This document shows, piece after piece, positions 25,708 to 42,060 of a stretch of 46,199 bases of DNA. The position numbers and the translations under genes were made by a program. Positions within the stretch are counted from its first letter, which is position 1. Every line of letters begins with the position of its first letter. The DNA comes from Lachnospiraceae bacterium. GTDB lineage: Bacteria > Bacillota > Clostridia > Lachnospirales > Lachnospiraceae. The stretch is taken from contig SVEA01000150.1 of assembly GCA_015057615.1 (NCBI GenBank), forward strand, positions 1 to 46,199, given 5' to 3'. Below the pieces are notes generated by a model. The model ran no database searches. It was not told the origin of the DNA and worked only from the letters and a program-made list of their open reading frames with translations.

Positions 25708-26015
25708 TATAGGATTTGAGTATCAAAAGCCAATTTATAAACCACCTTCGTCAATTTGCATAATTTATGTATTGATAAGTAATATGAAACAAATTTCATT
25801 CGCAACACGTGTTCCCCAAAGTATTGCAAAAAACGCAATCCTTGGGTTGAAGTACGTAATGGTACGTGAGATCACAAAATACGTGATCTAAATACCAATG
25901 ACTTCAAACAGTTGAGCATTAAATATTGTTTTCTATTACTTAAGTTTTTTCTTGGTTTATGCAAATTAACGAAGGTGGTTTGTTTAGAAGGCTCTTGAAC
26001 TTGAGTTGTTATAGG
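25708..26015. mobile_element. Foldback MITE-like element, copy D
   Basis: An element of about 296 bp (25714-26009) with left terminus ATTTGAGTATCAAAAGCC and a diverged right terminus. It is flanked by TATAGG (25708-25713 and 26010-26015). It sits just past the secG terminator and abuts the multi-hairpin repeat at 26008. A 77-codon frame inside it (25658-25891) is not credible as a gene. Confidence 0.8.
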
Positions 26016-26141
26016 GAAGTTCTCCGAACTTCCCTATAACATAGAAAGCACTCCGTGCAGGATGCGCACTCGCACGTTAGGTATATGCTGGTTTTGCCAA
26101 CTGCGCTCGGTGCGAGAATGTGCCAAGGCACATTCTTTTTC
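26008..26141 (+). repeat. Multi-hairpin element R1, candidate structured RNA
   Basis: H1 is a 15-bp perfect stem with a 3-nt loop (26008-26022, 26026-26040). A conserved block GATGCGCACTCGCACGTTAG (26061-26080) follows, then GTAT. A long-range helix pairs CTCGCAC (26069-26075) with GTGCGAG (26110-26116). H3 is AGAATGTGCC (26115-26124) with GGCACATTCT (26127-26136), ending in TTTTT. A second copy at 41907 keeps the same helices with changed sequence. Confidence 0.7.
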
Positions 26142-26186
26142 ACTTTATAGGAAAATGCTCCATTCACCGTAACCCATAATTATAAG

Positions 26187-38718: not shown

Positions 38719-38746
38719 TGCAGTGTAGAAATAATTAAAAAAGGTA

Positions 38747-38884
38747 ATTCTTCGGGGCAGGGTGAAATTCCCGACCGGCGGTATAGTCCGCGACTCTGAG
38801 ATAGGTAGGAGAGATCTTATGTATCATAGATTGATTTGGTGAGATTCCAAAACCGACAGTAAAGTCTGGATGAAAGAAGAGCAG
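38747..38884 (+). promoter_or_regulatory. FMN riboswitch (RFN element)
   Basis: The conserved blocks are present in order: TCTTCGGGGCAGGGTGAAAT, CCCGACCGGCGGT, GTCCGCGA, TTGATTTGGTGAGATTCCAA, ACCGACAGTAAAGTCTGGAT and the closing GAAAGAAGA. It binds FMN and should lower expression of the downstream riboflavin transporter when flavin is plentiful. Confidence 0.96.
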
Positions 38885-38906
38885 TGAGATACGATAGATT
38901 TTTTGG

Positions 38907-41882: not shown

Positions 41883-41910
41883 AGAGTTGGGCGGAGTCCA
41901 ACTCTTTTTT
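41883..41910 (+). terminator. Terminator after the zinc-ribbon-like gene
   Basis: AGAGTTGG (41883-41890) with CCAACTCT (41898-41905), then six T. Confidence 0.9.
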
Positions 41911-42060
41911 CATCGTATAGGCGTCCTATACGATGAAAACCTCCATGCGAACATAGTTGGCATTGGGATGACGCACTTGCGCGTAAGGTATTTATCTGCC
42001 TGTGGCAGAACGCGCTCGGCGCGAGAGTTTGCCTTAGCAAACTCTTTGCTACTGGAGGTT
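41907..42060 (+). repeat. Multi-hairpin element R2, candidate structured RNA
   Basis: H1 is a 15-bp stem with a 3-nt loop (41907-41921, 41925-41939). An outer helix pairs AACCTCCA (41938-41945) with TGGAGGTT (42053-42060). The conserved block GATGACGCACTTGCGCGTAA then GGTAT follows. A long-range helix pairs CTTGCGC (41976-41982) with GCGCGAG (42019-42025). H2 is TCTGCC with GGCAGA (41995-42000, 42004-42009). H3 is AGAGTTTGC with GCAAACTCT (42024-42032, 42037-42045). Same architecture as R1 at 26008 with compensating changes. Confidence 0.72.

Follow-up and report, generated by a model that had tools for sequence, protein, structure and literature searches.

The two multi-hairpin sequences R1 and R2, which lie in the window (that is, the whole 46,199-nt stretch of DNA analyzed here), raise the question of whether we are dealing with a structured RNA or with DNA of a mobile element that folds as a single strand, as proposed in the first-pass annotation. 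Both are present where that annotation placed them (26008-26141 for R1 and 41907-42060 for R2), with the common order of parts it described (Table 1), and both fold markedly better than shuffled sequence, with z-scores of -5.69 and -6.31 and none of 200 dinucleotide shuffles folding as well, for stretches that include some flank. Its statement that the elements belong to no known Rfam class also holds: in our Rfam 15 search of the window, nothing over R1 or R2 reaches the gathering threshold, and the only matches that do, an FMN riboswitch (RF00050, 112.9 bits, at 38744-38885) and two tRNAs, all lie elsewhere. Near R1 and R2, the Rfam matches are at chance level only, and no match at the gathering threshold is given by six loci that carry copies in other genomes, such that a riboswitch or other Rfam class was rejected.

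Table 1. Positions of R1, R2, their parts, and adjoining features in the window.
Feature	Position	Strand	Basis
R1, whole element, H1 to end of T-rich tail; right end set from where other copies end, ~8 nt beyond the final hairpin	26008..26143	+	family alignment
R1, outer hairpin H1, arms GTTATAGGGAAGTTC / GAACTTCCCTATAAC	26007..26041	+	self-complementary match, folding
R1, conserved block GGATGCGCACTCGCACGTTAGGTAT	26060..26084	+	core pattern, copy alignment
R1, local hairpin GCGC-ACTC-GCAC, imperfect, inside conserved block	26064-26075	+	
R1, small hairpin P3, imperfect	26087..26101	+	by eye; stems present in relatives
R1, local hairpin GCGC-TCG-GTGC	26103..26113	+	covariation in copies
R1, terminator-like hairpin P4 (26116-26135) and T-rich tail	26116..26143	+	folding, covariation
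Long inverted repeat, distinct from R1 and ending shortly before it, with arms of 25 nt	25739..25981	.	similar sequence before other copies
R2, target, an intrinsic terminator: hairpin 41884-41904, T-run 41905-41910	41884..41910	+	
R2, whole element	41907..42052	+	family alignment, boundary analysis
R2, outer hairpin H1	41907..41939	+	folding, pairing with target
R2, conserved block	41965..41991	+	core pattern
R2, local hairpin ACGC-ACTT-GCGC, imperfect, in conserved block	41971-41982	+	
R2, hairpin P3, TCTGCC/GGCAGA	41995..42009	+	
R2, local hairpin GCGC-TCG-GCGC	42012..42022	+	
R2, terminator-like hairpin P4 (42025-42044) and tail TTTGCTAC	42025..42052	+	

R1 and R2 are members of a dispersed repeat family, far above chance. 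In their own genome (4.07 Mb in 215 contigs), a BLAST search with R1 as the query gives 49 matches, and the core pattern with up to three mismatches occurs at 78 places, compared to none for a reversed control pattern. A covariance model built from 37 copies gives 131 matches at E ≤ 0.01, the weakest of which include partial matches and reverse-strand matches to the palindrome. The first-pass annotation had proposed such a model as a probe of other genomes, and its use on the genomes of relatives did uncover a large dispersed family, with matches at E ≤ 0.001 in 24 of 61 genomes (own included), all from one family, and in none of 24 genomes from other families of the order. A wider search within the family, with a model from 37 diverse copies, gave matches at E ≤ 1e-6 in 96 of 348 genomes (own included) and 94 of 333 genera; since no more than 12 candidates were scored per genome, the copy numbers from this search are lower bounds. 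Copies are abundant in several of the relatives, with 45 matches, many of them nearly identical, in Butyrivibrio sp. SIG348 (G070), and 43, 26, 19, 17, and 10 in G071, G066, G068, G064, and G062, respectively. An exact pattern scan of named genomes returned 27 stretches, from Butyrivibrio, Lachnospiraceae assemblies, and Agathobacter ruminis, together with one Elusimicrobiota match (L161) that has no element around the pattern and that we take to be due to chance. From these named carriers, and from a family member in which the A. ruminis matches recur with identical coordinates, we infer that the sampled family is Lachnospiraceae. Carriage by phages or plasmids was considered and rejected, as two exact patterns have no match in viral contigs, and two queries, R2 and one Butyrivibrio copy, have none in plasmids.

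By eye, the copies are modular: H1 comes in three main types and the block preceding the core in two versions, and these are combined in various ways with several types of core and tail. At 26 own-genome loci (for example, L197, L204, L220, L221, L223-L226, L231, L242, and L244-L246), the conserved block of the copies contains an additional hairpin, ACGAATACTTGAAACATGTATTCG. One common internal deletion, in which TTTTGCCAGCG is joined to AAACTC, is found in six own-genome stretches (L005, L245, L260, L261, L263, and L264), and would reflect either a short form that is itself mobile or repeated deletion at microhomology. At three loci of G070 (L421, L426, and L428), another palindromic repeat (ACTGGGGACGTATCA.. 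/ ..TGATACGTCCCCAGT) stands in the place of H1.

The copies show a preference for one kind of site, immediately behind the T-run of an intrinsic terminator. The fetched loci gave 114 matches, including partial ones and ones to the reverse palindrome; leaving out 11 without an H1 anchor and 1 that was duplicated or short of flank, we were able to anchor 102 own-genome copies. A T-run of at least 4 nt lies directly upstream of 80 of these 102 copies, compared to 7 of 102 when the same position is read 100 nt further up, and a T-run combined with a 40-nt fold of ≤ -8 kcal mol–1 precedes 41 copies compared to 1 control. The copies tend to be oriented as the terminator they follow. We note that 22 of the 102 have no T-run of at least 4 nt, and that 61 lack the combination of T-run and fold, a count to be read in light of the fact that a 40-nt window misses long terminator stems. 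The same placement is seen elsewhere: the T-run and the fold occur together before 23 of 31 copies in G070 and G071, before 12 of 17 copies drawn from 15 genomes in other genera, and before none of the controls. A control window is present for every copy counted, and copies without an anchor (8 from G070/G071 and 4 from the other genera), as well as 1 near a contig end, were left out. In a further count without a control, both features precede 26 of 43 copies outside the own genome, excluding copies scoring <30 and 5 without an anchor. R2, which adjoins an RNase Z-like gene (from a reading of its translation), is a typical case of this placement, unlike R1, which is atypical in having no T-run before it and in lying directly behind the inverted repeat listed in Table 1. 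The arms of this repeat (AAACCACCTTCGT..) are separated by 193 nt, and similar sequence precedes the copies at L004, L010, and L015. A family with no Rfam entry, and with matches in 94 of 333 sampled genera, marks the 3' ends of many genes, which it may also modify.

Such a distribution could, in principle, belong to a sequence that does not move at all, namely, a structured RNA or 3'-UTR/terminator module used by the host, multiplied by ordinary duplication and kept for its function. The core is strongly conserved across genera, and the sense-oriented preference for sites behind terminators would suit such a module equally well; however, the presence of the element is patchy (the 24 of 61 genomes given above), and orthologous terminators can be empty. 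Specifically, by eye, an R2-type terminator without the element stands upstream of the RNase Z-like gene in four relatives (loci L120, L121, L123, and L125, with genomes G017, G030, G002, and G015), and a fifth locus, L122 of G012, has an element of a different subfamily inside the same T-run as that of R2; 29 relatives' loci were compared for this purpose, most of the others being too diverged to align. A second own-genome copy also lies behind a terminator whose equivalent in G017 is empty (by eye). In addition, an 88-nt core identical to the consensus occurs in 14 copies from 11 named genomes, an identity for which the 20-nt selection of the named-genome scan accounts only in part. Upstream flanks are readable for 12 of these 14 copies and differ in all 12, and 8 of the 12 have both the T-run and the fold before them. 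Empty sites and identical cores in unlike upstream flanks, in different named genomes, imply that the element is mobile, making a host module that stays in place very improbable. We therefore consider it likely, from these comparisons of sequence, that the R1/R2 family is a mobile element that inserts behind terminators. Tandem arrangements also occur, with every copy placed in the tail of the one it follows (L005, L240, and L413).

No autonomous relative carrying a gene was found. By eye, two 5'-truncated copies at L239 flank a gene without transposase-like features, and no autonomous copy is seen among 80 starts in the fetched loci of the own genome that resemble H1 but lack a core. Upstream of the RNase Z-like gene at L144 (G001), we observed a different, longer intergenic insert that starts with ATAGGAAATTGCG and ends with a complementary stretch (by eye), and which may be a further element with ends of this type.

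At the right end of the element, information drops toward background 8-9 nt after P4 in three subfamilies, with tails that differ by lineage (TTTGCTAC, TTTCTTG, and TTTTTTAT). In G070, 12 copies without a mismatch in the 88-nt body have tails that match the consensus over 3-8 nt, where one of the two shortest matches is due to a single substitution, and this variation among identical bodies shows that the right junction is inexact. On the left, the sequence common to 13 Butyrivibrio copies starts at the T-run itself, which makes the exact left boundary ambiguous. Near-identical G070 copies have no terminal inverted repeats by eye (left ATATCATAGG.., right ..CATTCTTTGTTCT), and no target site duplication was seen by eye among copies whose T-rich ends merge with the T-run, with no closely alignable two-sided empty site.

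Turning to structure, the long-range helix CTCGCAC/GTGCGAG, on which the first-pass annotation relied, is not supported by the comparison of further copies. It is fully paired in 14 of 37 diverse copies, with a covariation of 0.070 compared to 0.076 in shuffles, and in a set of 46 copies its covariation is slightly above that of shuffles, 28 of 500 of which reach its score and 50 of 500 its percentage paired. With the smaller set no better than shuffles and the larger one marginal, we dropped this helix. In contrast, the number of cells with changes on both sides is 93 for a local model consisting of GCGC-ACTC-GCGC, GCGC-TCG-GCGC, and the terminal hairpin, compared to 28.3 in shuffles, with none of 500 reaching this number; related sequences can beat such shuffles even without structure, but versions of the model slid along the alignment do not, giving 3-10 such cells. 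The terminal hairpin carries most of this signal, although the two short hairpins alone still have 7 changes on both sides compared to 0.9 in shuffles (0 of 500). The first of them is fully paired in just 19 of 37 copies. At L411 and L413, the loops of the short hairpins vary in length while the stems are kept, which favors local pairing. The first loop may also contact the strand that follows the second hairpin, through a nearly invariant CTC/GAG pairing. In this comparison, the terminal hairpin and the two short local hairpins are maintained by paired changes.

Taking these results into account, the annotation's expectation that the helices would be maintained in more copies is borne out for the terminal and two local hairpins, while its long-range helix falls away, and its choice of a structured RNA or folded single-stranded DNA of a mobile element retains mobility and the local helices. 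Its description of H1 and H3 as perfectly paired is supported for H1, which pairs copy by copy, but not for H3 of R1 (our P3), where a C·A mismatch and a T·G pair are seen by eye; the P3 stem has at least 5 pairs in 26 of 37 copies. Finally, its step from compensating change to function calls for caution in view of H1, whose changes follow the adjoining target DNA.

In R2, the outer pairs of H1 are formed between the T-run plus the C behind it (TTTTC) and GAAAA. Among own-genome copies, 29 of 106 non-T letters in the T-run part of the H1 5' arm are paired, compared to 12.7 expected from within-class permutations (0 of 2000 reach the observed value). Among 22 near-identical copies (21 from G070 and 1 from G071), we counted three cells in which target and element both vary and match each other, 2 in which the target alone varies, none in which only the element does, and 127 without variation on either side (Fisher test, 2.7e-5, from small numbers). 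By eye, L351 has a further target match outside the six positions counted, and at L060 and L077 the paired tract extends past the T-run. As the letters of H1 follow each target, its covariation may be mutational, and we give an even chance to the explanation that paired changes in H1 arise by template-switch correction of a quasi-palindrome, without selection for an RNA helix, which is compatible with mobility. Such correction has been documented in E. coli (passages of PMC7202029), and would account both for 3'-arm letters that track private letters of the target (R2, L072, L077, L060, and L231) and for tracts that run beyond the T-run. However, H1 is kept among copies, also across genera (by inspection), and among the matched G070 copies the 88-nt body is free of mismatches in L360 and L415 and has a single one in L423, which points to changes coupled to insertion and not to a slow correction made afterwards. 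Either way, covariation in a long palindrome may stem from DNA template switching and, by itself, is a trap rather than proof of RNA structure.

Based on these data, we propose that R1 and R2 are copies of a small non-autonomous mobile element of about 135-150 bp, with a strong outer hairpin on the left and a terminator-like hairpin and T-rich tail on the right. The element inserts with a single orientation and prefers the position immediately after the T-run of an intrinsic terminator, where an insertion probably does little harm, and its own last hairpin can then receive the next copy. The machinery involved would recognize folded single-stranded DNA, in the form of the element ends and the terminator hairpin.

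The anatomy of the element resembles that expected for single-strand transposition, with hairpins at both ends, no inverted ends, and a fixed orientation behind a hairpin and T-run, and among the possible enzymes we tentatively favor a transposase of the HUH/Y1 (IS200-like) type, supplied in trans, as the one that would move it. Y1_Tnp matches are found in 13 of 14 tested element-carrying genomes, although the own-genome match is partial (profile positions 65-121 only), and those of G064, G066, and G074 are weakly scoring and RAYT-like. Across relatives, Y1_Tnp is present in 29 of 61 genomes and does not track the element, as G030, G017, and G035 have copies but no Y1_Tnp, and several other genomes have Y1_Tnp but no copies. 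Among the Y1_Tnp loci examined, which are only part of all such matches (L176-L187 and L381-L394, with ~1.5 kb flanks where the contig allowed), the element occurs in L383 (G063) alone, with a copy at 2098-2188, ~240 bp behind an IS200-type Y1 transposase gene; the three RAYT-like loci, L389-L391, have no flanking copies. By eye, the ends of IS200-type genes are recognizable at 4 of 8 relatives' loci (L181, L182, L184, and L185) and are unlike those of the element, a comparison drawn from relatives, the own-genome match being partial. At L184 and L185, the IS200-type genes have their left flank behind a terminator-like hairpin and T-run (by eye). With Y1_Tnp untracked, ends that differ, and RAYT-like loci unflanked, IS200/RAYT was rejected as a proven mobilizer, and the inexact right ends also count against a DNA transposase, which would not predict them.

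In intrinsic termination, the expected transcript end is where the right end of the element falls. An inexact right end at this terminator-like position would agree with an RNA intermediate, in which a SINE-like transcript would end at its own terminator, its U-rich 3' end would anneal to the A-run of the target, and a reverse transcriptase would copy it in. We consider this unlikely, although it would fit the right end, with its tail agreement over 3-8 nt among the 12 G070 copies with mismatch-free bodies, as well as the choice of a T-run as target and the shuffling of modules between subfamilies. There is also a precedent in the group IIC introns, whose target is a stem-loop and T's, and which, in the part of PMC10190682 drawn on here, attack this DNA through an A-rich EBS1. 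On the other hand, RVT_1 is found in just 7 of 14 element-carrying genomes, being missing from G071, G066, G068, G064, and G062 in spite of 10-43 matches each (several of these are drafts or metagenome assemblies), as well as from G012 and G030, and 5'-truncated copies are few (by eye). With RVT_1 missing from half of these 14 genomes, reverse transcriptase was rejected as a proven mobilizer. A more elaborate version, a structured SINE-like RNA with its own terminator whose U-rich end and internal A-run pair with the target, and whose outer hairpin is re-templated at insertion, is in our estimate improbable; if true, the element would spread through and between Lachnospiraceae without any gene of its own.

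We return, therefore, to the small mobile element proposed above, and to how it compares with known systems. It differs from MITEs in having no terminal inverted repeats. IS200/IS605 elements have hairpins at both ends, an orientation-specific target, and no inverted ends. The present element is like them in all of these respects, and in the Y1_Tnp matches of its carriers, but there is no transposase inside it, and its ends are unlike those of the IS200 copies at the four loci mentioned above. REP/REPIN sequences with their RAYTs are likewise small, hairpin-bearing intergenic repeats in dozens to hundreds of copies per genome, and RAYT-like Y1 genes are found in some element-carrying genomes; the element is, however, longer (~140 bp, with several hairpins) and inserted behind terminators. 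In addition, RAYTs are always flanked by two REPs, according to the portion of PMC2817692 used here, whereas the three RAYT-like genes of this study are not flanked by copies. The GTAG/GTGG head at the foot of the hairpin that the same portion (PMC2817692) describes for REPs is absent, as the tails differ by lineage and only TTTGCTAC reads GTAG on the other strand.

The pneumococcal BOX, RUP, and SPRITE repeats, as presented in passages of PMC3049150, are short, hairpin-rich, and enriched behind genes, in all of which they are like the present element, with BOX being modular and SPRITE terminator-like. Compared by description only, they differ in having inverted ends and, for BOX and RUP, target duplications, and precise targeting of the terminators of other genes is not described in those passages (PMC3049150). 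Group IIC introns share the target, a DNA stem-loop followed by T's, recognized by an A-run (in the part of PMC10190682 considered), but the element, at ~140 nt, has no group II match. A group II intron remnant was rejected in that there is no domain V or core match in the window or at six loci, while this search does recover group II introns from these genomes.

Among the titles listed in our survey of the open-access literature, which did not extend to subscription papers and supplementary tables, we recognized none as describing the element, while the set of 3161 candidate RNAs reported in the portion of PMC8040213 consulted, the tables of which lay outside this scope, may hold a model of it. 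Among small non-autonomous interspersed repeats, the element stands out by its terminator targeting and its target-adapted outer stem, and it offers a natural system in which to study the means by which mobile DNA locates intrinsic terminators, and the way in which a hairpin comes to match the site of its insertion.
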